A DNA stretch of 64,000 nt from Gordius sp. MW1 (lineage: Eukaryota; Nematomorpha; Gordioida; Gordea; Gordiidae): assembly GCA_964036665.1 (NCBI GenBank), contig OZ038527.1, forward strand, positions 7,017,001 to 7,081,000, written 5' to 3'. The notes beneath the pieces were generated by a model. That model was not told the DNA's origin. It saw only the letters and a list, made by a program, of their open reading frames with translations, and did no database searches. The translations under genes were made by a program, and so were the position numbers. Shown piece after piece: positions 5,179-54,981 of the stretch; position 1 is the stretch's first letter; every line of letters begins with the position of its first letter.

Positions 5179-8133
5179 CCCTCCGTACGCTTTTTGGGTC
5201 AATATGACCCAAGCCTTTCTAAAAACATGCAAGAAAAAAAAAGTAATGAACATAGAGCTTCAGATTTTTCAGTAGCTTAACAAATTTTATCATATTACAA
5301 CTCTGCAAATTTTGGTTAGTTTTCACCCATTGGTTCTAAATATATCATGGTTTTTTGAACGTCTTGGGTCATATTGACCCCTAAAGCGAACGGAGGATAT
5401 TTTTTTTTTCAAAAAAAAATTTTTTTTTTGCTTAAATGATAAAAACTAATACCCAAATGATATCGAAAAAATAAATTTTTCTCTAGCTCATATATTTTGT
5501 AAATTATGACGATTTTAAATTTGACTTTTTGTTTCCTCGTGGAATTTATCCATGCCAATATTTAGCAGCTGATTTGTTCCCGCGTATTTCTTTTTTTCTT
5601 TTCACATGGAATCTTTTAAAATTTCGGATATTTTTGAAGATTCTGATTGGGGAAGTAACATTTTTTTTTGGTTTTTAAGATTTTTAGGTAGCTCAGAAAG
5701 TGATACTGATGACTGTTTATCTATTAGTAGTTGTGAATCTGAATCGGAGTTAGATGAAGGAGAGCCAAGTTTAGGCGGGGGAAAATATTATTATGGTATT
5801 TAGACATGATATATAAATTAAAACAAATAAAAAATTGTCAAAACTTTATTTTATAGTTAAGTTATGACTATCAATATTTTTTTTATTCTCAGGGAAGGAT
5901 AAGACAAAATGGGACTCTAATTTCCCCATGAAAACCATCAGAACGCGGAAATGTAATATAGTGCTACACCTTTCAGGGGTGAAACCAATAGCTAGGGGTG
6001 CAACTTCCTATGTAGATTGTTTTAAATTGTTTGTTTCAACGAATATACTTGAGGAAATTATAAAATTTACCAACGAAAAATTCCAGCAAACTAATGAAGG
6101 TCCATTAGTTTCTTCTAAAGAATTGGATGCATTTTTAGGACTTTTATTTTTGTTAGGTAATAATTGATTTAATAAAATTTTTCTACTTATTTAATTTACA
6201 TAAATTTTTTATATAGGTGTATATAAGGCCAACCATCAAAACCTCAAAGATTTTTGGAGTTTGAAAGGCCTAGGACCCAGCATATTTAGAGCCACCATGC
6301 CTCAAAAAAGATTTGAGTCATTATTAAAGATGATAAGATTTGATGATAGTAAACAAGAGCTGCTAGAAAAATCACGGATAAAGCAACCCATATCCGATTT
6401 GTTTTTGAAGCTTTTGTTAAAAATTGCATCCAAAATTATACCCCCTCCGAATACCTCACAATTGACGAAATGCTGCCAGGTTTTAGAGGGAGGTGCTGCT
6501 TTAGGCAATACCTCCCTAATAAACCAAATAAATATGGCATAAAATTCTTTGCCATGTGTTGCGCCAAAACTTTTTATACCCTGAATATGGAGATTTACAC
6601 GGGCTGCCAACCCGAGGGGCCCTTCAAAATAAGCTTTAAAGCCTCCGATATAGTCGAAAGGCTCGTGACGCCCATTTCAAAAAGTGGCCGCAATATTACT
6701 GTTGACAACTGGTACACTAGTTGTCAACTAGTTGACACCTTGTATTATAATCATAATTTAACATTAGTGGGGACTTTAAAAAAAAATAAGAGAGAAATAC
6801 CCTCCGAATTTCTAATTATTAAATCAAGACCGGCACCTTCTACAATATTTGGATTTAAACACAATAAAACTCTTTTATCCTACGTCCCAAAAAAAAACAA
6901 AAATGTCCTGTTGCTATCTTCTTTCCATTTTAATTATAATAATGATTTATCAAATCACCTAAAACCGGAAATCGTCACCTTCTACAATGCAACTAAAGGA
7001 GGCGTTGATACAGTTGATCAGATGGCTTCAAGCTATTCTGTGTCTAGAATTTCTAGACGATGGCCTTTGACGGTATTTTTTCATATACTCAATGTGGCTG
7101 GAATAAATTCCCAAATAATTTATCTGGCAAATAGTGGTGTAAAACTAACGAGGAGCAAGTTTTTAAAAGAATTGGCATTAGAATTAATAAAGCCCTTTTT
7201 GATTGATCGATTGTCTCTACCTTCTTTGAGGTACAAAACCAAACTATTGATTCATCAACTCTTGGGTACAAAGGACGTTCACTCATCGCCCCCCCAAAAA
7301 GCTAGAGGTCGTTGCAAATTATGTCAAAATCACAACAAACATAGCACTTATTGCGCTATTTGTAAAAAATATATTTGTAAAACTCATATGTATCTGACAT
7401 GTTTGCATTGTAAGGACGCTGATAATATTATTGAATAAACAATAAATTGTAAAATTAATTGTGTGCAACTTCCAAATAATATAAAAGTTTAATTTTTAAA
7501 AATTGCTTTTAGGGCTTTATTGAAAAATTAAGTGTTACACTGTTAAAAATTCTTCAAAAAAATTGCGCCCCATTAAAACTTTATAAAACAAAAACTAAGA
7601 GGGCTAGAAACTATATTAATGGTTTAAATTAAAGAGGAAAATTATATTAATCAATGAAAAAAAAATTATATCTTAAATTAAATTATTTTCAAAAATATAT
7701 AAATTTAAACTTAGCCAATATTTTGATGAAAAAATATGTAAATTTAATGTTGATGGTATTTAAACCGAAATATCTATATTTCGCATTATTTATTTTAAAT
7801 AATTTTTTTTTGTTTTTTTTTGCTTCAAGTCTATATTTTAAAAATATGTAAAAAATATCTAAAAATATTGGATAGATTTTTGTTAAAGTAAAATTTAGTA
7901 TACACAGTGAAAAATAATTTAAAATTTTACCGGGTCGGTTATAATTAGCGATAAAATAAAAAGTTATGAACAAAAATATAAATTTAAGAGCTCAAATTAT
8001 TGGCAAAAGATCATTTAATATATGTCTAAAATTTAACTCCTAGTACTTTAGAAATTGTAGCGATTTAAAGTTATGGGTCATATAGACTCAAAAATCCGAA
8101 CGAATGATGTAAAAATGAAAGGTGAATGAAGGG
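5179..8133 (+). mobile_element. piggyBac-like transposon copy P2
   Basis: Same termini and architecture as the first copy, at a 4468 bp period, nearly identical throughout. Diagnostic differences from copy 1 are AGCAGCTG upstream of the start codon instead of AGCAGATG, and CAAAGATTTTTGG instead of CAAAGAGTTTTGG in exon 3. Right flank TTAA is at 8134. Confidence 0.88.
5606..7438 (+). pseudogene. piggyBac-like transposase, frameshifted (copy 2)
   Basis: Exons 5606-5795, 5893-6156 and 6217-7438 with the same splice sites as copy 1. It carries the shared T-run frameshift at 6402-6406. A Pro-to-Ser change lies in exon 2 (residue 15 of the piece starting at 5928), in the otherwise conserved HLPGVKP motif. 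A Glu-to-Asp change occurs before FWSL in exon 3. TIDE, VDNW, GGVDTVDQ and the cysteine-rich tail remain readable in the downstream frame. Confidence 0.88.
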
Positions 8134-9698
8134 TTAACACTAAATTAAATATATTAATTCAGAATAGATCAAACTTAAAAAGGTATTTTCCTAAATAATT
8201 TAAAAGTTCAAACTTAAAAAGGTATTTTCCTAAATAATTTAAAAGTCGTTTCACCATCGTCAATTAAGTCTCAATCCCTGAGGTAACTTTTCTTGCGACT
8301 CTAAGGAATTATTGGCTCTCATCGACATTTAAAACTTAAACTTTTTAATATTCAACTTTACTTTACCCAATCCAATCCTTATAATTGCCTATTTTTCAAA
8401 GATTAATAAAATAAATGTGTGCAGAAAAATTTATATATTTTAATAAAATCCACAAATTAACCCTCGTCAACTAAGTCTCAATCCCTAAGGTAACCATTCT
8501 TACGCCTCCGACAATACTTTTAAGTTATAATCTTCTCGTCAACTTAAATTTACAATTTGAATGCTGAATTTTCATCTCGTCAACTGTAATTTTATGTCAT
8601 AATGCACTCGCCAACTATGCTAAAATTAATAATTTTAATGCTAAATTTTCATCTCGTCAACTGAGCTTAAATTATTTATTTAGATAGTGCATTTTCATCT
8701 CGTCAACTTGACTTTTAAGTCAAAATTTTCATAAATTTATGCTGATTTTTCTTCTCGTCAACTGTACTATTATTATCTCGTCAACTAAGCAGTAATAATT
8801 TTATAATTTCTCGTCAACTAAGTCTTTGAGTCGAAAGACTCTCGTCAATTAAGCTTAAATTCACAATATGAATGCTAAATTTTCATCTCGTCAACTGGAC
8901 TTTTATGTTAAAATAGTCTCGTCAACTAAGCTTAAAGTAATAATTTTATAATTTCCGTCAACTATGCCTTTCAAGTCGAAAAACTCTCGTCAATTAAGCT
9001 TAAATTCACAATATGAATGCTAAATTTTCATCTCGTCAACTGGACTTTTATGTTAAATAGTCTCGTCAACTAAGCTTAAAGTAATAATTTTATAATTTCT
9101 CGTCAACTATGCCTTTTAAGTCGAAAAACTCTCGTCAATTAAGCTTAAATTCACAATAGGAATGCTAAATTTTTCTCGTCAACTGGACTTTTATGTTAAA
9201 ATAGTCTCGTCAACTAAGCTAAGTAATAAGTTTCTACTTTCTCGTCAACTATGCAAAACTCTCGTCAATTAAGCTTAAATTCACAATAGGAATGCTAAAT
9301 TTTCATCTCGTCAACTGGACTTTTATGTTAAAATAGTCTCGTCAACTAAGCTTAAGTAATAAGTTTCTACTTTCTCGTCAACTATGCAAAACTCTCGTCA
9401 ATTAAGCTTAAAGTCACAATAGGAATGCTAAATTTTCATCTCGTCAACTGGACTTTTATGTTAAAATAGTCTCGTCAACTAAGCTTAAAGTAATAAGTTT
9501 CTACTTTCTCGTCAACTATGCAAAACTCTCGTCAATTAAGCTTAAATTCACAATATGAATGCCAAATTTTCATCTCGTCAACTGGACTTTTATGTTAAAA
9601 TAGTCTCGTCAACTAAGCTTAAAGTAATTTCTCGTCAACTATGCTTTTAAGTCGAAAAACTCTCGTCAATTAAGCTTGAATTTATAATTTTATAAGTC
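8134..9698. repeat. Leader T plus divergent spacer array S
   Basis: Leader 8134-8776 lacks the short TTCTCGACATATAATCC-type insertion seen in most other leaders (compare 8371 with 3905), a marker shared only with the leader after P4. The array 8777-9698 starts with regular units, then changes near 9206 to shortened units of about 132 bp in which AAGTTTCTACTTTC and ATGCAAAACTC replace longer text. It closes with a unit ending TTGAATTTATAATTTTATAAGTC before the 227 bp units. Confidence 0.85.
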
Positions 9699-10111
9699 GC
9701 ATTCACCACCTCGTCAACTAAGTCTCAATCCCTGAGGTAACTTTTCTTACGCCTCCGACAATACTAATATACTCTCGTCAACTATGCTAAAATAAATAAT
9801 ATTTTCTCCTCGTCAACTTCAACTCTACTCGAAAAGACTAAGTCCACATTTCCTCTCGCCAACTCTTCCCAAGCCAAAAAAATTAACAAACCTTTGATCT
9901 AGCGCTAAGTCTCAATAGATCGTAGGCATTCACCACCTCGTCAACTAAGTCTCAATCCCTGAAGTAACTTTTCTTACGCCTCCGACAATACTAATATACT
10001 CTCGTCAACTATGCTAAAATAAATAATATTTTTTCCTTGTCAACTTCAACTCTACTCGAAAAGACTAAGTCCACATTTCCTCTCGCCAACTCTTCCCAAG
10101 CCAAAAAAATT
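9699..10111. repeat. S' spacer units containing a copy of the 28S 3' end (two units)
   Basis: Unit 1 is 9699-9925 (227 bp); unit 2 starts at 9926 and runs into the larger 28S fragment. Each begins GCATTCACCACCTCG, contains a 28S-like block on the minus strand (GTAAGAAAAGTTACCTCAGGGAT as two overlapping pieces within TCAATCCCTGAGGTAAC), then CTCGTCAACT boxes. Unit 1 ends with about 39 nt equivalent to the last bases of 28S (9885-9923). This is the hallmark of spacer subrepeats formed by duplication across the 28S/spacer boundary. Confidence 0.85.
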
Positions 10112-10545
10112 AACAAACCTTCGATCTAGCGCTAAGTCTCAATAGATCGCAGTATGGTGGCTGCTCTAACTAAGCACAACCCGCTGACCGATACCTAGGT
10201 CGTCTGCGAATGATTTAACACCCTCGCCGTCGTCCCGAATGCTGAGCCGATCGGAACCCGACGCTTAATCGTTAGCCGGGCTTCGAGAACGGCCATCAAC
10301 TTCGAACGGACCGAGGTCACCCTCGGCCATTATACTGAGTTAATCGACTACGAGGCGCGCCGAAATATCGTTACCTTTCTAGGCGGGATTCTGACTTAGA
10401 GGCGTTCAGTCATAATCCCTCAGATGGTAGCGTCGCGCCGTCGGCTTTTCAGCCGGACGCCTGAACCAAATGTCTGAACCTGCGGTTCCTCTCGTACTGA
10501 GCAGGATTACTATAGCAACAACTAGTCATCAGTAGGGTAAAACTA

Positions 10546-10583
<38 letters not shown>

Positions 10584-10619
10584 TATTAGTGGGTGAACAA
10601 TCCAACGCTTGGTGAATTC

Positions 10620-10650
<31 letters not shown>
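10112..10650 (-). rRNA. 28S rRNA 3'-terminal fragment (copy R1, broken gene)
   Basis: Reading the minus strand gives conserved 28S domain V-VI sequence, including CGATGTCGGCTCTTCC, GGTTTAGACCGTCGCG and the sarcin-ricin loop core AGTACGAGAGGAACC (10484-10498). It reaches the 28S 3' end near 10112 (GATCTATTGAGACTTAGC...GGTTTGTT). The gene is interrupted: about 50 nt that should precede CGATGTCGG are missing and replaced by the inverted-repeat insertion, and only ~90 nt of further upstream 28S follow. It therefore cannot yield a functional rRNA. Orientation places the spacer arrays (lower coordinates) downstream of 28S. Confidence 0.92.
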
Positions 10651-10651
<1 letters not shown>

Positions 10652-10661
10652 TATTCACGTA

Positions 10662-10766
10662 GCGGCTCGTAATTCACGTACCTCCATGCTGGTGGGCCGC
10701 GGGCAACGTTGCTGAGGGAAGGGGTGAAGCATCGCCGCTCCTCTCAGCAACGGCTAAATCGTGAAT
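10662..10766 (+). ncRNA. HDV-like ribozyme, left arm (R1)
   Basis: On the plus strand the HDV-like double-pseudoknot order is present. P1 is GCGGCTC with GGGCCGC (7 bp, one G-U). P2 is ATTCAC with GTGAAT. P3 is ACC with GGT around an 8 nt L3 TCCATGCT. A GG after P1' (10701-10702) could form P1.1 with CC of L3. P4 is GTTGCTGAGGG with CTCTCAGCAAC, and J4/2 is GGCTAAATC with a C-N-A-A core containing the presumed catalytic C. HDV-like ribozymes at retrotransposon 5' ends free the element RNA from upstream transcript. Cleavage is predicted just before G10662. Activity is inferred, not shown. Confidence 0.75.
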
Positions 10767-10885
10767 CTCGGATAGTAGTCGGCAACCTTAGAAGAGCTGG
10801 TGGTTGTCGGCGAGAAGGAAAGTCCCTGGAGCCTTGCAGCCTCCTTGTGTAAAACTCTATCAAACAGCTAACGCTATTAGTAAAA

Positions 10886-11143
10886 ATGAATAAATCAACG
10901 CCAAGGCCCCGATCCAATAGTCGTGAAGGGGAAGGGCAAAAGAAAATTCGGGCGACTCGCCATAAAACAGCGCGCGGACAAGTGCAACACGATGTCGAGA
11001 AGAATCGGCTAGGCTGCTAGAACATCCGCGGCCTAGCTGATCCATTAAAGCTCAATGAACTTATTGCAATAATAAGAGAAAATCAGATCTCTGTGCTCTC
11101 GCTTACGGAGACACACCTACCAAATCAGAGCGAAGACTTTTAG
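10886..11143 (+). pseudogene. Non-LTR retrotransposon ORF start, APE endonuclease N-terminus, nonsense mutated (R1)
   Basis: An ATG at 10886 lies in the left arm, about 120 nt downstream of the ribozyme. The 85-codon frame encodes a basic N-terminus, then the APE endonuclease opening motif (reads as NIRGL with a downstream ETHLP). The family is the apurinic-endonuclease-like domain of non-LTR retrotransposons, which nicks target DNA to prime reverse transcription. The ETH motif would supply a metal-binding Glu. Codon 45 is TAG (11018-11020) here, where copy R2 has TTG, so this copy is closed. The remnant ends at the inverted-repeat junction with a stop at 11141. The clade is not resolved from this short piece. 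Confidence 0.7.
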
Positions 11144-11383
11144 CCGATTCTTCTCGACATCAGGTTGTACTTCTCCGCGCGCTGCTTGTTGGCAAGTCGC
11201 CCAAATTTTCTTTAACCCTTCCCCTTCACCTATTGGTTCGGGGCCTTCGCGCTAATTTGTCCATTTTTATTAATTGTGATAGCTGGTTGAAAGAGTTTTA
11301 CGCAGGGAGGCTGCAAGGCTCCAGGGACTTTCCTTCTCACCGACAACCACCAGCTCTTCTAAGGTTGCCGGCTACGATCCGAG

Positions 11384-11488
11384 ATTCACGATTTAGCCGT
11401 TGCTGAGAGGAGCAGCGATGCTTCGCCCCTTCTCTCAGCAACGTTGTCCGCGGCCCACCAGCGAGGAGGTACGTGAATAACGGGCCGC
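11384..11488 (-). ncRNA. HDV-like ribozyme, right arm, 28S-sense strand (R1)
   Basis: On the minus strand: P1 GCGGCCC/GGGCCGC (7 perfect pairs), J1/2 GTT, P2 ATTCAC/GTGAAT, P3 ACC/GGT with L3 TCCTCGCT, GG for P1.1, P4 GTTGCTGAGAG/CTCTCAGCAAC (11 perfect pairs) and J4/2 GGCTAAATC. It is more canonical than the left arm. The predicted cleavage point is between 28S base 11489 and G11488, the exact 28S/insert boundary. This matches the arrangement known for R2 retrotransposons, where the ribozyme processes a 28S co-transcript. Confidence 0.8.
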
Positions 11489-11579
11489 ATCCCTGTGGTA
11501 ACTTTTCTTACACCTCCCGCTTTAAACTCGAAATATCGAAAGGATCGATAGGCCACGCTTTCACGGTGCGTATTCATAC
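11489..11579 (-). rRNA. 28S rRNA internal fragment upstream of the insertion (R1)
   Basis: The minus strand reads GAATACGCACCGTGAAAGCG, then GGCCTATCGATCCTTTCG, and ends GTAAGAAAAGTTACCACAGG then GAT, the conserved 28S domain V stretch that normally continues AACTGGCTTGTGGC. Only about 90 nt is recognisable. Upstream (higher coordinates) the similarity to 28S is lost abruptly, so the gene is broken on this side too. Confidence 0.85.
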
Positions 11580-12249
11580 TTCCTTAACGAACACATGGCC
11601 GCTGAAAAATCACGGTAATCGAATTTTCGCTACTCGCGAGGTTCTAACGTAACGTGGACACGAATTTTCACGAGCCGCCCGCCCACCGCCCGACTACGAC
11701 GCGATCCGAAAATCACGGCGAGAAAGGGGTGCCCGGTACTCACTCTTTCGAAAATCGCTGTGCTTCAATTACGCTCGAAATCGAAGCCGACTGCAAAATG
11801 GCCCATTAACGTTCTTTCTCCGACTCGAAATTGCCCATTAACGCTCTCTCTCCGACGACTGGGACGCTTAACGCAGTGAATTAAAGATTACGTGGCAAGC
11901 AAATAATTTAATTAATACAACGAAAAACCACGTTTCGTATCTAAATTTCACTGCGTTAAAAATATCCCCACTTTAAAGGTAGGTTGACAATGGTAAACTC
12001 ACTAAAATTCACGATAATACTCGAGTTGACGATGGTTTTCCTACATTTAACGTGGGGATACTGCTTTAATCGCTTCCATACGCGATTATAGCAGGAGGAG
12101 GGATGCCCCACACACATACAGATTATCACACTACACGTTAAATTGCAGTACCACCAATGCTACAACGCTATATCAACGCATTACTGCAATAACAACGTAT
12201 CTCACTTTTTCACACAACACCACCTCCTCATATAAGGTTGATGAGAATA
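11580..12249. other. Hairpin-rich non-coding segment upstream of the 28S fragment (R1)
   Basis: No ORF and no 28S similarity that I recognise. Four successive inverted repeats are visible: TTAACGCAGTGAA 11868-11880 with 11947-11959 (13 bp perfect, with ACGTGG/CCACGT nested inside); a 21 nt arm 11963-11983 with 12040-12060 (three mismatches); CTGCTTTAATCGC 12061-12073 with 12082-12094 (one mismatch); and ATTGCAGTA 12142-12150 with 12182-12190. The segment ends AATA, the junction with either G or X. Confidence 0.65.
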
Positions 12250-20604: not shown

Positions 20605-20709
20605 GCGGCTCGTAATTCACGTACCTCCATGCTGGTGGGCCGCGGGCAACGTTGCTGAGGGAAGGGGTGAAGCATCGCCGCTCCTCTCAGCAACGGCTAA
20701 ATCGTGAAT
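20605..20709 (+). ncRNA. HDV-like ribozyme, left arm (R2)
   Basis: Identical in all paired elements to the left-arm ribozyme of R1: G-U in P1, L3 TCCATGCT. Predicted cleavage is before G20605. Confidence 0.75.
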
Positions 20710-20828
20710 CTCGGATAGTAGTCGGCAACCTTAGAAGAGCTGGTGGTTGTCGGTGAGAAGGAAAGTCCCTGGAGCCTTGCAGCCTCCTTGTGTAAAACTC
20801 TATCAAACAGCTAACGCTATTAGTAAAA

Positions 20829-21086
20829 ATGAATAAATCAACGCCAAGGCCCCGATCCAATAGTCGTGAAGGGGAAGGGCAAAAGAAAATTCGGGCGACT
20901 CGCCATAAAACAGCGCGCGGACAAGTGCAACACGATGTCGAGAAGAATCGGCTAGGCTGCTTGAACATCCGCGGCCTAGCTGATCCATTAAAGCTCAATG
21001 AACTTATTGCAATAATAAGAGAAAATCAGATCTCTGTGCTCTCGCTTACGGAGACACACCTACCAAATCAGAGCGAAGACTTTTAG
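20829..21086 (+). pseudogene. APE endonuclease N-terminal remnant, open reading frame kept (R2)
   Basis: 85 codons from ATG 20829 to TAG 21084-21086. The product has a Lys/Arg-rich first 40 residues, then LNIRGL at 45-50 and TETHLP near 74-79, the first two conserved blocks of the APE-type endonuclease of non-LTR retrotransposons. A full endonuclease is over 200 residues and is followed by reverse transcriptase, and neither is present. The frame is truncated at the inverted-repeat junction. It differs from the other four copies by TTG versus TAG at codon 45, so R2 probably shows the ancestral state. Confidence 0.75.
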
Positions 21087-21328
21087 CCGATTCTTCTCGA
21101 CATCAGGTTGTACTTCTCCGCGCGCTGCTTGTTGGCAAGTCGCCCAAATTTTCTTTAACCCTTCCCCTTCACGACTATTGGTTCGGGGCCTTCGCGCTAA
21201 TTAGTCCATTTTTATTAATTGTGATAGCTGGTTGAAAGAGTTTCACGCAGGGAGGCTGCAAGGCTCCAGGGACTTTCCTTCTCACCGACAACCACCAGCT
21301 CTTAAAAGGTTGCCGGCTACGATCCGAG

Positions 21329-21433
21329 ATTCACGATTTAGCCGTTGCTGAGAGGAGCAGCGATGCTTCGCCCCTTCTCTCAGCAACGTTGTCCGCGGCC
21401 CACCAGCGAGGAGGTACGTGAATAACGGGCCGC
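21329..21433 (-). ncRNA. HDV-like ribozyme, right arm, 28S-sense (R2)
   Basis: Same paired elements as the R1 right-arm ribozyme. The 5' G at 21433 directly follows 28S CCACAGGGAT on the minus strand. Confidence 0.8.
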
Positions 21434-25602: not shown

Positions 25603-26134
25603 CTCGCCATAAAACAGCGCGCGGACAAGTGCAACACGATGTCGAGAAGAATCGGCTAGGCTGCTAGAACATCCGCGGCCTAGCTGATCCATTAAAGCTC
25701 AATGAACTTATTGCAATAATAAGAGAAAATCAGATCTCTGTGCTCTCGCTTACGGAGACACACCTACCAAATCAGAGCGAAGACTTTTAGCCGATTCTTC
25801 TCGACATCAGGTTGTACTTCTCCGCGCGCTGCTTGTTGGCAAGTCGCCCAAATTTTCTTTAACCCTTCCCCTTCACGACTATTGGTTCGGGGCCTTCGCG
25901 CTAATTTGTCCATTTTTATTAATTGTGATAGCTGGTTGAAAGAGTTTTACGCAGGGAGGCTGCAAGGCTCCGACTTTCCTTCTCACCGACAACCACCAGC
26001 TCTTCTAAGGTTGCCGGCTACGATCCGAGATTCACGATTTAGCCGTTGCTGAGAGGAGCAGCGATGCTTCGCCCCTTCTCTCAGCAACGTTGTCCGCGGC
26101 CCACCAGCGAGGAGGTACGTGAATAACGGGCCGC
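25603..26134. mobile_element. Truncated inverted-repeat insertion (R3), left arm mostly deleted
   Basis: Begins TCGCCATAAAACAGC, which is position 10957 of R1. The left ribozyme, 5' UTR, start codon and entire 28S 3' end are lost; the loop and right arm (25788-26134) remain. The endonuclease frame has TAG at 25665. The right arm carries a deletion in GGCTCCGACTTTCC shared with R5. The junction shows only 2-3 bases of shared sequence (GTC/CTC). Confidence 0.8.
26030..26134 (-). ncRNA. HDV-like ribozyme, right arm, 28S-sense (R3)
   Basis: All stems are intact although the opposite arm is gone, so this copy cannot form the long arm-to-arm duplex. It abuts 28S at 26135. Confidence 0.8.
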
Positions 26135-30533: not shown

Positions 30534-33488
30534 CCCTCCGTACGCTTTTTGGGTCAATATGACCCAAGCCTTTCTAAAAACATGCAAGAAAAAAAAAGTA
30601 ATGAACATAGAGCTTCAGATTTTTCAGTAGCTTAACAAATTTTATCATATTACAACTCTGCAAATTTTGGTTAGTTTTCACCCATTGGTTCTAAATATAT
30701 CATGGTTTTTTGAACGTCTTGGGTCATATTGACCCCTAAAGCGAACGGAGGATATTTTTTTTTTCAAAAAAAATTTTTTTTTTTGCTTAAATGATAAAAA
30801 CTAATACCCAAATGATATCGAAAAAATAAATTTTTCTCTAGCTCATATATTTTGTAAATTATGACGATTTTAAATTTGACTTTTTGTTTCCTCGTGGAAT
30901 TTATCCATGCCAATATTTAGCAGCTGATTTGTTCCCGCGTATTTCTTTTTTTCTTTTCACATGGAATCTTTTAAAATTTCGGATATTTTTGAAGATTCTG
31001 ATTGGGGAAGTAACATTTTTTTTTGGTTTTTAAGATTTTTAGGTAGCTCAGAAAGTGATACTGATGACTGTTTATCTATTAGTAGTTGTGAATCTGAATC
31101 GGAGTTAGATGAAGGAGAGCCAAGTTTAGGCGGGGGAAAATATTATTATGGTATTTAGACATGATATATAAATTAAAACAAATAAAAAATTGTCAAAACT
31201 TTATTTTATAGTTAAGTTATGACTATCAATATTTTTTTTATTCTCAGGGAAGGATAAGACAAAATGGGACTCTAATTTCCCCATGAAAACCATCAGAACG
31301 CGGAAATGTAATATAGTGCTACACCTTCCAGGGGTGAAACCAATAGCTAGGGGTGCAACTTCCTATGTAGATTGTTTTAAATTGTTTGTTTCAACGAATA
31401 TACTTGAGGAAATTATAAAATTTACCAACGAAAAATTCCAGCAAACTAATGAAGGTCCATTAGTTTCTTCTAAAGAATTGGATGCATTTTTAGGACTTTT
31501 ATTTTTGTTAGGTAATAATTGATTTAATAAAATTTTTCTACTTATTTAATTTACATAAATTTTTTATATAGGTGTATATAAGGCCAACCATCAAAACCTC
31601 AAAGAGTTTTGGAGTTTGAAAGGCCTAGGACCCAGCATATTTAGAGCCACCATGCCTCAAAAAAGATTTGAGTCATTATTAAAGATGATAAGATTTGATG
31701 ATAGTAAACAAGAGCTGCTAGAAAAATCACGGATAAAGCAACCCATATCCGATTTGTTTTTGAAGCTTTTGTTAAAAATTGCATCCAAAATTATACCCCC
31801 TCCGAATACCTCACAATTGACGAAATGCTGCCAGGTTTTAGAGGGAGGTGCTGCTTTAGGCAATACCTCCCTAATAAACCAAATAAATATGGCATAAAAT
31901 TCTTTGCCATGTGTTGCGCCAAAACTTTTTATACCCTGAATATGGAGATTTACACGGGCTGCCAACCCGAGGGGCCCTTCAAAATAAGCTTTAAAGCCTC
32001 CGATATAGTCGAAAGGCTCGTGACGCCCATTTCAAAAAGTGGCCGCAATATTACTGTTGACAACTGGTACACTAGTTGTCAACTAGTTGACACCTTGTAT
32101 TATAATCATAATTTAACATTAGTGGGGACTTTAAAAAAAAATAAGAGAGAAATACCCTCCGAATTTCTAATTATTAAATCAAGACCGGCACCTTCTACAA
32201 TATTTGGATTTAAACACAATAAAACTCTTTTATCCTACGTCCCAAAAAAAAACAAAAATGTCCTGTTGCTATCTTCTTTCCATTTTAATTATAATAATGA
32301 TTTATCAAATCACCTAAAACCGGAAATCGTCACCTTCTACAATGCAACTAAAGGAGGCGTTGATACAGTTGATCAGATGGCTTCAAGCTATTCTGTGTCT
32401 AGAATTTCTAGACGATGGCCTTTGACGGTATTTTTTCATATACTCAATGTGGCTGGAATAAATTCCCAAATAATTTATCTGGCAAATAGTGGTGTAAAAC
32501 TAACGAGGAGCAAGTTTTTAAAAGAATTGGCATTAGAATTAATAAAGCCCTTTTTGATTGATCGATTGTCTCTACCTTCTTTGAGGTACAAAACCAAACT
32601 ATTGATTCATCAACTCTTGGGTACAAAGGACGTTCACTCATCGCCCCCCCAAAAAGCTAGAGGTCGTTGCAAATTATGTCAAAATCACAACAAACATAGC
32701 ACTTATTGCGCTATTTGTAAAAAATATATTTGTAGAACTCATATGTATCTGACATGTTTGCATTGTAAGGACGCTGATAATATTATTGAATAAACAATAA
32801 ATTGTAAAATTAATTGTGTGCAACTTCCAAATAATATAAAAGTTTAATTTTTAAAAATTGCTTTTAGGGCTTTATTGAAAAATTAAGTGTTACACTGTTA
32901 AAAATTCTTCAAAAAAATTGCGCCCCATTAAAACTTTATAAAACAAAAACTAAGAGGGCTAGAAACTATATTAATGGTTTAAATTAAAGAGGAAAATTAT
33001 ATTAATCAATGAAAAAAAAATTATATCTTAAATTAAATTATTTTCAAAAATATATAAATTTAAACTTAGCCAATATTTTGATGAAAAAATATGTAAATTT
33101 AATGTTGATGGTATTTAAACCGAAATATCTATATTTCGCATTATTTATTTTAAATAATTTTTTTTTGTTTTTTTTTGCTTCAAGTCTATATTTTAAAAAT
33201 ATGTAAAAAATATCTAAAAATATTGGATAGATTTTTGTTAAAGTAAAATTTAGTATACACAGTGAAAAATAATTTAAAATTTTACCGGGTCGGTTATAAT
33301 TAGCGATAAAATAAAAAGTTATGAACAAAAATATAAATTTAAGAGCTCAAATTATTGGCAAAAGATCATTTAATATATGTCTAAAATTTAACTCCTAGTA
33401 CTTTAGAAATTGTAGCGATTTAAAGTTATGGGTCATATAGACTCAAAAATCCGAACGAATGATGTAAAAATGAAAGGTGAATGAAGGG
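30534..33488 (+). mobile_element. piggyBac-like transposon copy P3
   Basis: Nearly identical to P1 (offset 29823), but with AGCAGCTG before the start codon and one coding change near the C-terminus. TTAA at 33489. Confidence 0.88.
30961..32793 (+). pseudogene. piggyBac-like transposase, frameshifted (copy 3)
   Basis: Exons 30961-31150, 31248-31511 and 31572-32793. It shares the T-run frameshift (31757-31761). A Lys-to-Arg change lies in the cysteine-rich domain, right after a zinc-ligand-type Cys (AGAACTCAT in place of AAAACTCAT near 32733); all Cys/His positions are kept. Confidence 0.88.
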
Positions 33489-35001: not shown

Positions 35002-37957
35002 CCCTCCGTACGCTTTTTGGGTCAATATGACCCAAGCCTTTCTAAAAACATGCAAGAAAAAAAAAGTAATGAACATAGAGCTTCAGATTTTTCAGTAGCT
35101 TAACAAATTTTATCATATTACAACTCTGCAAATTTTGGTTAGTTTTCACCCATTGGTTCTAAATATATCATGGTTTTTTGAACGTCTTGGGTCATATTGA
35201 CCCCTAAAGCGAACGGAGGATATTTTTTTTTTCAAAAAAAAATTTTTTTTTTGCTTAAATGATAAAAACTAATACCCAAATGATATCGAAAAAATAAATT
35301 TTTCTCTAGCTCATATATTTTGTAAATTATGACGATTTTAAATTTGACTTTTTGTTTCCTCGTGGAATTTATCCATGCCAATATTTAGCAGCTGATTTGT
35401 TCCCGCGTATTTCTTTTTTTCTTTTCACATGGAATCTTTTAAAATTTCGGATATTTTTGAAGATTCTGATTGGGGAAGTAACATTTTTTTTTGGTTTTTA
35501 AGATTTTTAGGTAGCTCAGAAAGTGATACTGATGACTGTTTATCTATTAGTAGTTGTGAATCTGAATCGGAGTTAGATGAAGGAGAGCCAAGTTTAGGCG
35601 GGGGAAAATATTATTATGGTATTTAGACATGATATATAAATTAAAACAAATAAAAAATTGTCAAAACTTTATTTTATAGTTAAGTTATGACTATCAATAT
35701 TTTTTTTATTCTCAGGGAAGGATAAGACAAAATGGGACTCTAATTTCCCCATGAAAACCATCAGAACGCGGAAATGTAATATAGTGCTACACCTTCCAGG
35801 GGTGAAACCAATAGCTAGGGGTGCAACTTCCTATGTAGATTGTTTTAAATTGTTTGTTTCAACGAATATACTTGAGGAAATTATAAAATTTACCAACGAA
35901 AAATTCCAGCAAACTAATGAAGGTCCATTAGTTTCTTCTAAAGAATTGGATGCATTTTTAGGACTTTTATTTTTGTTAGGTAATAATTGATTTAATAAAA
36001 TTTTTCTACTTATTTAATTTACATAAATTTTTTATATAGGTGTATATAAGGCCAACCATCAAAACCTCAAAGATTTTTGGAGTTTGAAAGGCCTAGGACC
36101 CAGCATATTTAGAGCCACCATGCCTCAAAAAAGATTTGAGTCATTATTAAAGATGATAAGATTTGATGATAGTAAACAAGAGCTGCTAGAAAAATCACGG
36201 ATAAAGCAACCCATATCCGATTTGTTTTTGAAGCTTTTGTTAAAAATTGCATCCAAAATTATACCCCCTCCGAATACCTCACAATTGACGAAATGCTGCC
36301 AAGGTTTTAGAGGGAGGTGCTGCTTTAGGCAATACCTCCCTAATAAACCAAATAAATATGGCATAAAATTCTTTGCCATGTGTTGCGCCAAAACTTTTTA
36401 TACCCTGAATATGGAGATTTACACGGGCTGCCAACCCGAGGGGCCCTTCAAAATAAGCTTTAAAGCCTCCGATATAGTCGAAAGGCTCGTGACGCCCATT
36501 TCAAAAAGTGGCCGCAATATTACTGTTGACAACTGGTACACTAGTTGTCAACTAGTTGACACCTTGTATTATAATCATAATTTAACATTAGTGGGGACTT
36601 TAAAAAAAAATAAGAGAGAAATACCCTCCGAATTTCTAATTATTAAATCAAGACCGGCACCTTCTACAATATTTGGATTTAAACACAATAAAACTCTTTT
36701 ATCCTACGTCCCAAAAAAAAACAAAAATGTCCTGTTGCTATCTTCTTTCCATTTTAATTATAATAATGATTTATCAAATCACCTAAAACCGGAAATCGTC
36801 ACCTTCTACAATGCAACTAAAGGAGGCGTTGATACAGTTGATCAGATGGCTTCAAGCTATTCTGTGTCTAGAATTTCTAGACGATGGCCTTTGACGGTAT
36901 TTTTTCATATACTCAATGTGGCTGGAATAAATTCCCAAATAATTTATCTGGCAAATAGTGGTGTAAAACTAACGAGGAGCAAGTTTTTAAAAGAATTGGC
37001 ATTAGAATTAATAAAGCCCTTTTTGATTGATCGATTGTCTCTACCTTCTTTGAGGTACAAAACCAAACTATTGATTCATCAACTCTTGGGTACAAAGGAC
37101 GTTCACTCATCGCCCCCCCAAAAAGCTAGAGGTCGTTGCAAATTATGTCAAAATCACAACAAACATAGCACTTATTGCGCTATTTGTAAAAAATATATTT
37201 GTAAAACTCATATGTATCTGACATGTTTGCATTGTAAGGACGCTGATAATATTATTGAATAAACAATAAATTGTAAAATTAATTGTGTGCAACTTCCAAA
37301 TAATATAAAAGTTTAATTTTTAAAAATTGCTTTTAGGGCTTTATTGAAAAATTAAGTGTTACACTGTTAAAAATTCTTCAAAAAAATTGCGCCCCATTAA
37401 AACTTTATAAAACAAAAACTAAGAGGGCTAGAAACTATATTAATGGTTTAAATTAAAGAGGAAAATTATATTAATCAATGAAAAAAAAATTATATCTTAA
37501 ATTAAATTATTTTCAAAAATATATAAATTTAAACTTAGCCAATATTTTGATGAAAAAATATGTAAATTTAATGTTGATGGTATTTAAACCGAAATATCTA
37601 TATTTCGCATTATTTATTTTAAATAATTTTTTTTTGTTTTTTTTTGCTTCAAGTCTATATTTTAAAAATATGTAAAAAATATCTAAAAATATTGGATAGA
37701 TTTTTGTTAAAGTAAAATTTAGTATACACAGTGAAAAATAATTTAAAATTTTACCGGGTCGGTTATAATTAGCGATAAAATAAAAAGTTATGAACAAAAA
37801 TATAAATTTAAGAGCTCAAATTATTGGCAAAAGATCATTTAATATATGTCTAAAATTTAACTCCTAGTACTTTAGAAATTGTAGCGATTTAAAGTTATGG
37901 GTCATATAGACTCAAAAATCCGAACGAATGATGTAAAAATGAAAGGTGAATGAAGGG
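35002..37957 (+). mobile_element. piggyBac-like transposon copy P4
   Basis: One base longer than its sisters because of an extra A at 36301-36302 (GCCAAGGTTTTAG in place of GCCAGGTTTTAG). It carries CAAAGATTTTTGG like P2 and P5. Confidence 0.88.
35429..37262 (+). pseudogene. piggyBac-like transposase copy 4 with false frame rescue
   Basis: Exons 35429-35618, 35716-35979 and 36040-37262. The shared T-run deletion (36225-36229) is followed about 75 nt later by a one-base insertion, so exon 3 reads open to the end (392 codons from 36084). The stretch between the two indels is translated out of frame: about 25 residues before GFRGRC read LTKCCQ where the family has TIDEML. The first catalytic Asp is therefore absent. 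VDNWYTS, GGVDTVDQ and the cysteine-rich tail are in frame. This is the longest frame in the window, but it is predicted to be catalytically dead. Confidence 0.88.
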
Positions 37958-40485: not shown

Positions 40486-40590
40486 GCGGCTCGTAATTCA
40501 CGTACCTCCATGCTGGTGGGCCGCGGGCAACGTTGCTGAGGGAAGGGGTGAAGCATCGCCGCTCCTCTCAGCAACGGCTAAATCGTGAAT
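40486..40590 (+). ncRNA. HDV-like ribozyme, left arm (R4)
   Basis: Same helices as the R1 left-arm ribozyme; predicted cleavage before G40486. Confidence 0.75.
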
Positions 40591-40709
40591 CTCGGATAGT
40601 AGTCGGCAACCTTAGAAGAGCTGGTGGTTGTCGGCGAGAAGGAAAGTCCCTGGAGCCTTGCAGCCTCCTTGTGTAAAACTCTATCAAACAGCTAACGCTA
40701 TTAGTAAAA

Positions 40710-40967
40710 ATGAATAAATCAACGCCAAGGCCCCGATCCAATAGTCGTGAAGGGGAAGGGCAAAAGAAAATTCGGGCGACTCGCCATAAAACAGCGCGCG
40801 GACAAGTGCAACACGATGTCGAGAAGAATCGGCTAGGCTGCTAGAACATCCGCGGCCTAGCTGATCCATTAAAGCTCAATGAACTTATTGCAATAATAAG
40901 AGAAAATCAGATCTCTGTGCTCTCGCTTACGGAGACACACCTACCAAATCAGAGCGAAGACTTTTAG
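40710..40967 (+). pseudogene. APE endonuclease N-terminal remnant, nonsense mutated (R4)
   Basis: As R1, with TAG at codon 45 (40842-40844). Confidence 0.7.
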
Positions 40968-41207
40968 CCGATTCTTCTCGACATCAGGTTGTACTTCTCC
41001 GCGCGCTGCTTGTTGGCAAGTCGCCCAAATTTTCTTTAACCCTTCCCCTTCACCTATTGGTTCGGGGCCTTCGCGCTAATTTGTCCATTTTTATTAATTG
41101 TGATAGCTGGTTGAAAGAGTTTTACGCAGGGAGGCTGCAAGGCTCCAGGGACTTTCCTTCTCACCGACAACCACCAGCTCTTCTAAGGTTGCCGGCTACG
41201 ATCCGAG

Positions 41208-41312
41208 ATTCACGATTTAGCCGTTGCTGAGAGGAGCAGCGATGCTTCGCCCCTTCTCTCAGCAACGTTGTCCGCGGCCCACCAGCGAGGAGGTACGTGA
41301 ATAACGGGCCGC
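41208..41312 (-). ncRNA. HDV-like ribozyme, right arm, 28S-sense (R4)
   Basis: Same helices as the R1 right-arm ribozyme; 5' G at 41312 abuts 28S. Confidence 0.8.
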
Positions 41313-49122: not shown

Positions 49123-52077
49123 CCCTCCGTACGCTTTTTGGGTCAATATGACCCAAGCCTTTCTAAAAACATGCAAGAAAAAAAAAGTAATGAACATAGA
49201 GCTTCAGATTTTTCAGTAGCTTAACAAATTTTATCATATTACAACTCTGCAAATTTTGGTTAGTTTTCACCCATTGGTTCTAAATATATCATGGTTTTTT
49301 GAACGTCTTGGGTCATATTGACCCCTAAAGCGAACGGAGGATATTTTTTTTTTCAAAAAAAATTTTTTTTTTTGCTTAAATGATAAAAACTAATACCCAA
49401 ATGATATCGAAAAAATAAATTTTTCTCTAGCTCATATATTTTGTAAATTATGACGATTTTAAATTTGACTTTTTGTTTCCTCGTGGAATTTATCCATGCC
49501 AATATTTAGCAGCTGATTTGTTCCCGCGTATTTCTTTTTTTCTTTTCACATGGAATCTTTTAAAATTTCGGATATTTTTGAAGATTCTGATTGGGGAAGT
49601 AACATTTTTTTTTGGTTTTTAAGATTTTTAGGTAGCTCAGAAAGTGATACTGATGACTGTTTATCTATTAGTAGTTGTGAATCTGAATCGGAGTTAGATG
49701 AAGGAGAGCCAAGTTTAGGCGGGGGAAAATATTATTATGGTATTTAGACATGATATATAAATTAAAACAAATAAAAAATTGTCAAAACTTTATTTTATAG
49801 TTAAGTTATGACTATCAATATTTTTTTTATTCTCAGGGAAGGATAAGACAAAATGGGACTCTAATTTCCCCATGAAAACCATCAGAACGCGGAAATGTAA
49901 TATAGTGCTACACCTTCCAGGGGTGAAACCAATAGCTAGGGGTGCAACTTCCTATGTAGATTGTTTTAAATTGTTTGTTTCAACGAATATACTTGAGGAA
50001 ATTATAAAATTTACCAACGAAAAATTCCAGCAAACTAATGAAGGTCCATTAGTTTCTTCTAAAGAATTGGATGCATTTTTAGGACTTTTATTTTTGTTAG
50101 GTAATAATTGATTTAATAAAATTTTTCTACTTATTTAATTTACATAAATTTTTTATATAGGTGTATATAAGGCCAACCATCAAAACCTCAAAGATTTTTG
50201 GAGTTTGAAAGGCCTAGGACCCAGCATATTTAGAGCCACCATGCCTCAAAAAAGATTTGAGTCATTATTAAAGATGATAAGATTTGATGATAGTAAACAA
50301 GAGCTGCTAGAAAAATCACGGATAAAGCAACCCATATCCGATTTGTTTTTGAAGCTTTTGTTAAAAATTGCATCCAAAATTATACCCCCTCCGAATACCT
50401 CACAATTGACGAAATGCTGCCAGGTTTTAGAGGGAGGTGCTGCTTTAGGCAATACCTCCCTAATAAACCAAATAAATATGGCATAAAATTCTTTGCCATG
50501 TGTTGCGCCAAAACTTTTTATACCCTGAATATGGAGATTTACACGGGCTGCCAACCCGAGGGGCCCTTCAAAATAAGCTTTAAAGCCTCCGATATAGTCG
50601 AAAGGCTCGTGACGCCCATTTCAAAAAGTGGCCGCAATATTACTGTTGACAACTGGTACACTAGTTGTCAACTAGTTGACACCTTGTATTATAATCATAA
50701 TTTAACATTAGTGGGGACTTTAAAAAAAAATAAGAGAGAAATACCCTCCGAATTTCTAATTATTAAATCAAGACCGGCACCTTCTACAATATTTGGATTT
50801 AAACACAATAAAACTCTTTTATCCTACGTCCCAAAAAAAAACAAAAATGTCCTGTTGCTATCTTCTTTCCATTTTAATTATAATAATGATTTATCAAATC
50901 ACCTAAAACCGGAAATCGTCACCTTCTACAATGCAACTAAAGGAGGCGTTGATACAGTTGATCAGATGGCTTCAAGCTATTCTGTGTCTAGAATTTCTAG
51001 ACGATGGCCTTTGACGGTATTTTTTCATATACTCAATGTGGCTGGAATAAATTCCCAAATAATTTATCTGGCAAATAGTGGTGTAAAACTAACGAGGAGC
51101 AAGTTTTTAAAAGAATTGGCATTAGAATTAATAAAGCCCTTTTTGATTGATCGATTGTCTCTACCTTCTTTGAGGTACAAAACCAAACTATTGATTCATC
51201 AACTCTTGGGTACAAAGGACGTTCACTCATCGCCCCCCCAAAAAGCTAGAGGTCGTTGCAAATTATGTCAAAATCACAACAAACATAGCACTTATTGCGC
51301 TATTTGTAAAAAATATATTTGTAAAACTCATATGTATCTGACATGTTTGCATTGTAAGGACGCTGATAATATTATTGAATAAACAATAAATTGTAAAATT
51401 AATTGTGTGCAACTTCCAAATAATATAAAAGTTTAATTTTTAAAAATTGCTTTTAGGGCTTTATTGAAAAATTAAGTGTTACACTGTTAAAAATTCTTCA
51501 AAAAAATTGCGCCCCATTAAAACTTTATAAAACAAAAACTAAGAGGGCTAGAAACTATATTAATGGTTTAAATTAAAGAGGAAAATTATATTAATCAATG
51601 AAAAAAAAATTATATCTTAAATTAAATTATTTTCAAAAATATATAAATTTAAACTTAGCCAATATTTTGATGAAAAAATATGTAAATTTAATGTTGATGG
51701 TATTTAAACCGAAATATCTATATTTCGCATTATTTATTTTAAATAATTTTTTTTTGTTTTTTTTTGCTTCAAGTCTATATTTTAAAAATATGTAAAAAAT
51801 ATCTAAAAATATTGGATAGATTTTTGTTAAAGTAAAATTTAGTATACACAGTGAAAAATAATTTAAAATTTTACCGGGTCGGTTATAATTAGCAATAAAA
51901 TAAAAAGTTATGAACAAAAATATAAATTTAAGAGCTCAAATTATTGGCAAAAGATCATTTAATATATGTCTAAAATTTAACTCCTAGTACTTTAGAAATT
52001 GTAGCGATTTAAAGTTATGGGTCATATAGACTCAAAAATCCGAACGAATGATGTAAAAATGAAAGGTGAATGAAGGG
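49123..52077 (+). mobile_element. piggyBac-like transposon copy P5
   Basis: As the others, with a private substitution near the right end (AGCAATAAAAT near 51891, others AGCGATAAAAT). Confidence 0.88.
49550..51382 (+). pseudogene. piggyBac-like transposase, frameshifted (copy 5)
   Basis: Exons 49550-49739, 49837-50100 and 50161-51382. T-run frameshift at 50346-50350. CAAAGATTTTTGG (Asp) variant in exon 3, as in copies 2 and 4. Confidence 0.88.
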
Positions 52078-54155: not shown

Positions 54156-54260
54156 GCGGCTCGTAATTCACGTACCTCCATGCTGGTGGGCCGCGGGCAA
54201 CGTTGCTGAGGGAAGGGGTGAAGCATCGCCGCTCCTCTCAGCAACGGCTAAATCGTGAAT
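54156..54260 (+). ncRNA. HDV-like ribozyme, left arm (R5)
   Basis: Same helices as the R1 left-arm ribozyme; predicted cleavage before G54156. Confidence 0.75.
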
Positions 54261-54379
54261 CTCGGATAGTAGTCGGCAACCTTAGAAGAGCTGGTGGTTG
54301 TCGGCGAGAAGGAAAGTCCCTGGAGCCTTGCAGCCTCCTTGTGTAAAACTCTATCAAACAGCTAACGCTATTAGTAAAA

Positions 54380-54637
54380 ATGAATAAATCAACGCCAAGG
54401 CCCCGATCCAATAGTCGTGAAGGGGAAGGGCAAAAGAAAATTCGGGCGACTCGCCATAAAACAGCGCGCGGACAAGTGCAACACGATGTCGAGAAGAATC
54501 GGCTAGGCTGCTAGAACATCCGCGGCCTAGCTGATCCATTAAAGCTCAATGAACTTATTGCAATAATAAGAGAAAATCAGATCTCTGTGCTCTCGCTTAC
54601 GGAGACACACCTACCAAATCAGAGCGAAGACTTTTAG
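54380..54637 (+). pseudogene. APE endonuclease N-terminal remnant, nonsense mutated (R5)
   Basis: TAG at codon 45 (54512-54514); otherwise as in R2. Confidence 0.7.
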
Positions 54638-54876
54638 CCGATTCTTCTCGACATCAGGTTGTACTTCTCCGCGCGCTGCTTGTTGGCAAGTCGCCCAAAT
54701 TTTCTTTAACCCTTCCCCTTCACGACTATTGGTTCGGGGCCTTCGCGCTAATTTGTCCATTTTTATTAATTGTGATAGCTGGTTGAAAGAGTTTTACGCA
54801 GGGAGGCTGCAAGGCTCCGACTTTCCTTCTCACCGACAACCACCAGCTCTTCTAAGGTTGCCGGCTACGATCCGAG

Positions 54877-54981
54877 ATTCACGATTTAGCCGTTGCTGAG
54901 AGGAGCAGCGATGCTTCGCCCCTTCTCTCAGCAACGTTGTCCGCGGCCCACCAGCGAGGAGGTACGTGAATAACGGGCCGC
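54877..54981 (-). ncRNA. HDV-like ribozyme, right arm, 28S-sense (R5)
   Basis: Same helices as the R1 right-arm ribozyme; 5' G at 54981 abuts 28S. Confidence 0.8.

Follow-up and report, generated by a model that had tools for sequence, protein, structure and literature searches.

A 28S insertion in Gordius sp. MW1 is bounded by predicted HDV-like ribozymes that probably mark the 5' ends of an APE-type non-LTR element

In the genome of Gordius sp. MW1, a fragment of a 28S ribosomal RNA gene is interrupted by an insert whose two arms are inverted copies of each other, and an original prediction from the sequence placed an HDV-like ribozyme at each end. Which element do these ends come from, and does an outward-facing pair of ribozymes do anything as a pair? 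We analyzed the window (the whole 64,000-nucleotide stretch at positions 7,017,001 to 7,081,000 of contig OZ038527.1) along with related copies elsewhere in the genome. We conclude that the ends are very probably the 5' termini of a 28S-targeted non-LTR element of the APE type that begins with a predicted HDV-like ribozyme of ~105 nt, and that the insert is a dead composite. The conserved fold, the exact junctions, one target duplication, and the domains for the APE endonuclease and the reverse transcriptase were all seen directly.

Results

An insert with inverted arms in a 28S fragment

The insert (10662-11488) lies within the 3' fragment of a 28S gene on the minus strand. The 28S sequence stops at 10651 and restarts at 11489, and 50 nt of 28S (counted on the Rfam alignment) are absent (Table 1). 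The filler between 28S and the left arm is identical in its letters to nt 10-19 of the element as read in the right arm. The arms are 89% alike over 350 bases. For the right arm, the predicted cleavage junction falls between 28S ...CACAGGGAT and GCGGCCC.

Table 1. Features of the insert, its flanks, and its other copies in the window (arms are aligned to the C7 copy of the element).
Feature	Position	Strand	Predicted ribozyme start	Basis or remark
Example of the 28S-like target GTTACCTCAGGGAT in the satellite	9728..9741	-		Pattern match
3' fragment of 28S that flanks the insert downstream	10115..10651	-		Rfam matches
10-nt filler TATTCACGTA, separating 28S from the left arm	10652..10661	+		Read directly
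Left (long) arm: element 5' end, with 5' UTR and start of the APE endonuclease frame	10662..11140	+		Aligned to nt 3-475
Left-arm HDV-like ribozyme, antisense relative to 28S	10662..10766	+	10662 plus	Predicted cleavage 5' of G10662
Right (short) arm: element 5' end	11141..11488	-		Aligned to nt 3-346
Right-arm HDV-like ribozyme, sense with the 28S fragment	11384..11488	-	11488 minus	Predicted cleavage 5' of G11488
28S fragment, upstream flank of the insert, last letters ...TTACCACAGGGAT	11489..11580	-		Rfam and junction comparison
Second composite copy	20605..21433		20605 plus, 21433 minus	
Right-arm ribozyme of a shortened composite, outer left arm missing	26029..26134	-	26134 minus	
Third composite copy	40486..41312		40486 plus, 41312 minus	
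Fourth composite copy	54156..54981		54156 plus, 54981 minus	

A predicted HDV-like fold at both ends

Both arms have the predicted helices in the correct order: P1 (7 bp), P2 (6 bp, or 7 bp if a terminal G-C is included), P3 (3 bp), and P4 (11 bp). Both also have an 8-nt L3 with CC, a GG in J1.1/4, and a J4/2 of GGC-U-A-A, which fits C-N-A-A. This is the nested double pseudoknot order of HDV-like ribozymes (P1-P2-P3-P4), with a G at the predicted cleavage site. The substitutions that had been pointed out in the left arm (C to T at column 6 in P1 and A to G at column 56 in P4) do preserve pairing, as G-U.

To describe this fold we used a descriptor (P1 of 7 bp, P2 of 6 bp, P3 of 3 bp, an L3 of 7-8 nt with CC, GG, P4, and C-N-R-A). 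In the window it matched exactly the nine predicted copies, four on the plus strand and five on the minus strand, and no other place. It had no matches on either strand of 1845 dinucleotide-shuffled 64-kb windows; because the descriptor was devised after inspecting the sequence, this gauges the rarity of the fold and is not a blind prediction. We also applied a slightly looser descriptor to 18 further loci (113,804 unmasked bases, with some overlap); all of its matches were to this ribozyme or to a single other motif. It gave no match in L059, nor in three left arms (one in L015 and one in each of the two L016 composites) in which L3 or P2 is altered. The latter three arms were matched by our covariance model R1, which was built from these very sequences with P2 omitted (its name does not refer to the R1 element).

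Of the Rfam models for HDV-like ribozymes, RF02682 and RF00094 each matched both arms, with scores under the gathering thresholds. In a search of 1.2 kb at a permissive E-value, RF02682 gave 38.6 bits for the left arm (E = 2.5e-5) and 36.5 bits for the right arm (E = 7.6e-5), and RF00094 gave 29.2 bits (E = 0.06) and 33.2 bits (E = 0.01), respectively. No score for an HDV-type family reached gathering (32.1-38.9 of 44 bits for RF02682 and 29.2-42.7 of 50 bits for RF00094). At the gathering level, the whole window had eight Rfam matches, all to LSU rRNA and none to HDV-like families. Genome-wide, with 61 of 5888 candidates scored, RF02682 had one match, below its cut-off (E = 8.9e-4), and the window copies were not among the matches listed.

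Minimum-energy folds showed P1 together with P4 in whole or in part, and did not show P3 as named. P2 is absent from these folds because the folding program cannot draw its pseudoknot. For two of the five sequences folded, the energy was near that of shuffles (z about -0.9).

The rarity of the descriptor, the sub-threshold Rfam matches, and the pairing of P1 in seven lineages (described below) back the HDV-like fold of both arms. By these sequence comparisons, each end of the insert is capable of an HDV-like ribozyme fold, with predicted self-cleavage.

Pairing is kept in diverged relatives

We parsed seven lineages: both arms of the window insert, L012, L013, L014, L060, and L061. The parsing pattern preset P3, J1.1/4, J4/2, and nearly all letters of P2, so that only the P1 count was free. 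P1 has seven of seven standard pairs in all seven lineages, including two-sided changes (GCGGCCC/GGGCCGC, GCGGCTC/GGGCCGC, GTGGCTC/GGGCCGC, GTGGCTC/GGGCCAC, GTGGCCC/GGGCTAC, GTGGCCT/AGGCCAC, and GTGGCCC/GGGCCAC). P1 pairing is thus kept, also in L060, which over its 5' 346 nt shares 72-73% identity with the window arms (L061 is not in this comparison table). P2 has six of six pairs in the seven lineages, with nearly all of its letters preset as noted. P1.1 (the CC of L3 with the GG) and the C-N-A-A of J4/2, with the predicted catalytic C, are also present in all seven, the J letters being part of the pattern. One collection of copies was drawn via the J4/2-P2 motif; BLAST and a protein search led to the same 5' ends as well.

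We also aligned 11 rows, four of which (near-identical arms of L015 and L016) had been omitted from the parsing. In this alignment, 96.5% of cells were paired, versus 34-53% when the alignment was slid. Two-sided changes occurred at 3 pairs, in 7 cells, versus 0-1 in the slid controls and a mean of 2.4 cells in shuffles (0 of 500 shuffles were as high). Another of our five measures, "further pair types," was no better than shuffles (487/500). One P1.1 pair was lost in one of the 11 rows. In the row for L061 (alignment A1), MAFFT misplaced one gap, which broke a P1 pair; this row was retained in the 11-row counts. P3 and five of the seven P2 pairs are invariant, so the covariation comes from P1 and P4 alone. 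P4 measures 11 bp in both window arms; L060 and L061 have a shorter P4 that includes a mismatch, and in L013 two P4 pairs are mismatches. The pair counts exclude L059 and L009-L011, which are 5'-truncated and have wholly or partly lost P1.

The parent element

A genome search with the right arm returned at least 39 rows, which comprise 27 ribozyme places and 12 P4 hairpins on the opposite strand. Of these ribozyme places (at least 27), 20 are in 10 complete composites, 1 is in a truncated composite, and 6 are in other copies. All of the composites (at least 10 complete and 1 truncated) are located at C1:6.97-7.09 Mb. Elsewhere in the genome, single-oriented copies are headed by the same ribozyme sequence. 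The frames of these copies encode an endonuclease domain (Exo_endo_phos, PF03372) and a reverse transcriptase domain (RVT_1, PF00078) in one element. An APE-type non-LTR element had been one of the two alternatives in the original prediction, and it was the correct one. The L060 copies also have C-terminal C2H2-like fingers, all under the Pfam cut-offs.

The junctions of these copies confirm that both arms are exact 5' ends. Both L012 and L013 start with this G of P1, directly after 28S ...CACAGGGAT (...TTACCACAGGGAT). One of the two, the C7 copy, follows 28S ...GTTACCACAGGGAT, runs for 3,923 bp, and is followed by ACCACAGGGATAACCGGC; it is flanked by an 11-bp target duplication (ACCACAGGGAT). 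No other copy has clean 28S at each end; L061 also lies between stretches of 28S, but other DNA precedes its ribozyme and it lacks a duplication. Overall, the same 5' junction is found in L012, L013, and the composites; the target duplication is found in one copy; and other copies lie in a satellite with a 28S-like target. Because the arms align to nt 3-475 and 3-346 of the element and start with the same G, both of them are 5' ends.

L009, L010, and L011 are 5'-truncated copies in 28S that are spaced by 25.79 kb, which probably reflects tandem rDNA units. At L059:2421-9346, two diverging copies of the element flank a 28S fragment, an arrangement opposite to that of the window composite. At L014:5473-6400 (minus strand), LTR-like DNA stops at or a few bases from nt 1 of the ribozyme, with a match to an integrase core just below the cut-off. 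LTR-like DNA (as judged by eye) stops in the same way at L061:1299-2074.

Endonuclease and site set the element apart from R2

The inserts could instead be fragments of a known 28S element, either R2, in which HDV-like ribozymes are located where the element meets 28S (PMC3774820), or R1, whose clade encodes an APE endonuclease and includes target-specific families (PMC4640811). We consider this highly improbable. The endonuclease is Exo_endo_phos (PF03372) and not the restriction-like endonuclease of R2. In the same 28S copy, the motifs that we take to mark the R2 and R1 sites lie ~611 and ~546 nt upstream of the insertion site, respectively. Also, R1 has an ORF1 ahead of its endonuclease frame, and the 225 nt ahead of the endonuclease frame in L012 are too few for an R1-type ORF1. 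When the reverse transcriptase piece was compared to PDB, it was nearer to L1 ORF2p (1e-24) than to R2-named chains (3e-11) or to 8gh6 (a "reverse transcriptase-like protein" that is presumably the R2 of Bombyx; 1e-12), and L1 ORF2p ranked first in both of our searches of solved-structure sequences. Judged by its endonuclease and its site, the element is not R2. Protein searches of the best 7993-7995 candidates (those sharing the most words) gave identities of 24-40%, with 35% for the best by E-value, and yielded no clade name.

Alternatively, the element might belong to the RT lineage of mosquitoes, within the R1 clade, or be another named rDNA element with the same site. The insertion site of RT elements is about 634 nt downstream of that of R1 in 28S, and 28S lengths vary between insects. 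The target duplication of RT elements is longer than the 11 bp found here, though, and we found no paper in the open-access literature that carries the target letters, nor any such element with an HDV-like ribozyme in the titles and abstract openings of that literature. This alternative is improbable as well.

Two other elements of the genome have endonucleases that are 30% identical to that of the 28S element. One is a LINE in L057, where a match to Twister-P1 (L057:2353-2407, minus strand; 36.5 bits with a gathering threshold of 67.2) lies upstream of the endonuclease; L063:8797-8851 has a weaker match to twister-P1. Twister ribozymes are reported to occur at the 5' ends of RTE elements (PMC7761336). 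The other is an APE-type element that adjoins an 18S fragment (L064:720-980), for which we found no ribozyme match in Rfam up to E = 0.5 or with covariance model R1 up to E = 1.

Origin of the composite

The window insert is a dead composite of two 5' fragments, with the ribozymes facing outward and 50 nt of 28S lost. All 10 complete composites have the same ends, 841-844 bases apart. The long arm is on the left in the window and on the right in L015 and L016, with the same joint in both, which implies that the composite was flipped in one branch. The inner part that is unique to the long arm is nearly identical between the window and L015 (128/129), while the outer part of the window's left arm is closer to L012 (340/350 identical, versus 307/350 for the long arm of L015). 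This looks like conversion, and by these comparisons the left arm in the window was probably altered by gene conversion. We take the composite to be a single event that was then multiplied with the array. Because it contains only 5' parts of the element, it is unlikely to have mobility of its own.

How did two 5' ends come to be joined? The inverted pair could have formed by fold-back copying, at the DNA level, of one inserted 5' end; indeed, the two arms of L015 belong to one subfamily (343/350 identical). But the inverted arm stops precisely at G1. At this end 28S carries a deletion and a filler is present, with no copied 28S flank, and such an ending resembles the 5' junctions of Drosophila R2 (PMC3774820). 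Fold-back copying is thus rather unlikely. Most likely, the source was two cDNAs, each of which would have stopped at a ribozyme-made 5' end, and which were joined by their inner ends. Later steps would have been multiplication together with the surrounding repeat, a flip in one branch, and probable conversion of the left arm.

The presence of ribozymes at both ends of at least 10 composites might suggest a functional, retrozyme-like unit that releases RNA from both strands. Oppositely oriented ribozymes cannot excise one RNA, and just one of the two is sense with 28S. Furthermore, the composite consists of 5' parts of the element only and so lacks the 3' hairpin, and DNA copying accounts for the copy number, as the composites all lie in a single array and have their ends and joint in common. 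A functional unit is therefore exceedingly improbable, and we rejected a retrozyme-like function for the pair because the ribozymes face different directions. The outward pair is a rearranged fragment that was multiplied with an rDNA-derived repeat, and not a two-ribozyme device.

A 28S-like target in the satellite and a possible short partner element

The 28S-target pattern has 20 matches in the window, all on the minus strand: 15 in the satellite and 5 in 28S. The satellite unit carries the 28S-like stretch AAGAAAAGTTACCTCAGGGAT at these 15 places (such as 9728, 3806, and 62475). Because the satellite bears this stretch, rDNA-type elements can land there, as both L060 elements appear to have done: their 3' ends run into the satellite target (...ACCTCAGGGATTGAG). 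The same array contains transposase frames at 2002-2970, 6470-7438, 31825-32793, 36084-37262, 50414-51382, and 60671-61639; the one of these six that we scanned has PF13843, which we take to be a piggyBac-type domain.

A short element of ~430 bp is inserted in the satellite's 28S-like target in L016, in tandem (7400-7836 and 7837-8265, minus strand), and the first tandem copy is 5'-truncated. It has a separate HDV-like motif after ACCACAGGG, with a 6-bp P1 (GGAGAC/GTCTCC) and a P2 of TCCGCCA/TGGCGGA. Covariance model R1 gave this motif 24.8 bits (E = 0.001); Rfam did not match it at E = 0.05, and its minimum-energy folds were no better than shuffles. The short element terminates in a hairpin (CTCTATCA...TGATGGAG) that resembles the 3'-terminal hairpins of the C7 element and the L060 elements. 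Its body consists of two related halves of ~130 bp (83-85% alike) that have no match to the large element. A genome search with the motif gave five rows, which are the two L016 copies, their second halves, and one partial copy in C8.

Discussion

We infer the following steps, and their order, for the parent element. It would be transcribed within 28S RNA, and the ribozyme would cut exactly at the junction between 28S and the element, leaving a 5'-OH on G1. Translation of the freed RNA would follow, and target-primed reverse transcription would insert its copy at the nicked 28S site (ACCACAGGGAT).

In Drosophila R2, an HDV-like ribozyme that lies wholly within the element cleaves at the 28S junction, and the 5' junctions have 28S deletions and extra nucleotides (PMC3774820). 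The element described here shares with R2 the 28S target, an HDV-like ribozyme inside the element at the junction (with cleavage predicted), and junctions with a deletion and extra nucleotides. It differs from R2 in its APE endonuclease, its 28S site, its 11-bp duplication, and its reverse transcriptase, which is nearer to L1 ORF2p in the PDB search. Like the R1 clade, it has an APE endonuclease (PMC4640811), a 28S target, and a target duplication. Unlike R1, it has another site, no room for an ORF1, an HDV-like ribozyme, and a duplication of 11 bp instead of the 14 bp given for R1 (PMC3414825).

The short element in L016 appears similar to the SIDEs of R2 and R2/R1, which are short and non-autonomous, begin with a ribozyme, and are recognized by a helper through their 3' end (PMC3414825). 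It is short, has a 5' HDV-like motif, and has its 3' hairpin in common with the large element. Unlike in SIDEs, its ribozyme motif is distant from that of the large element (24.8 bits), and the halves of its body do not match the large element.

HDV-like ribozymes reportedly occur at the 5' ends of other non-LTR elements, some of them APE-type (Webb in 2009 and Ruminski in 2011), and our element is like these in that the ribozyme is at its 5' end. To our knowledge, those elements are not known as 28S-site-specific. Among the open-access titles and abstract openings that we searched (most subscription papers are outside this scope), none described a ribozyme of this kind in an APE-type 28S element. 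We provisionally regard this as a probable case of R2-style 5' processing on an APE-type 28S element with another endonuclease and another site than those of R2; its novelty is provisional because the coverage is of open-access literature only.

More broadly, we see the chances as evenly balanced that an APE-type 28S lineage outside of R1 and R2 has come to live as R2 does at a new 28S site, where an HDV-like ribozyme would trim the 28S cotranscript at the junction, and that it has a short non-autonomous partner that shares its target and 3' hairpin and carries a different HDV-like ribozyme. R2 is the well-studied 28S element that is freed by an HDV-like ribozyme. If this reading is true, then an APE-type 28S case would suggest that trimming by a ribozyme tracks the targeting of rDNA and not the protein lineage of R2. 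The diverged copies and the short ribozyme-headed partner form a natural set for tests of how ribozymes are gained or swapped.
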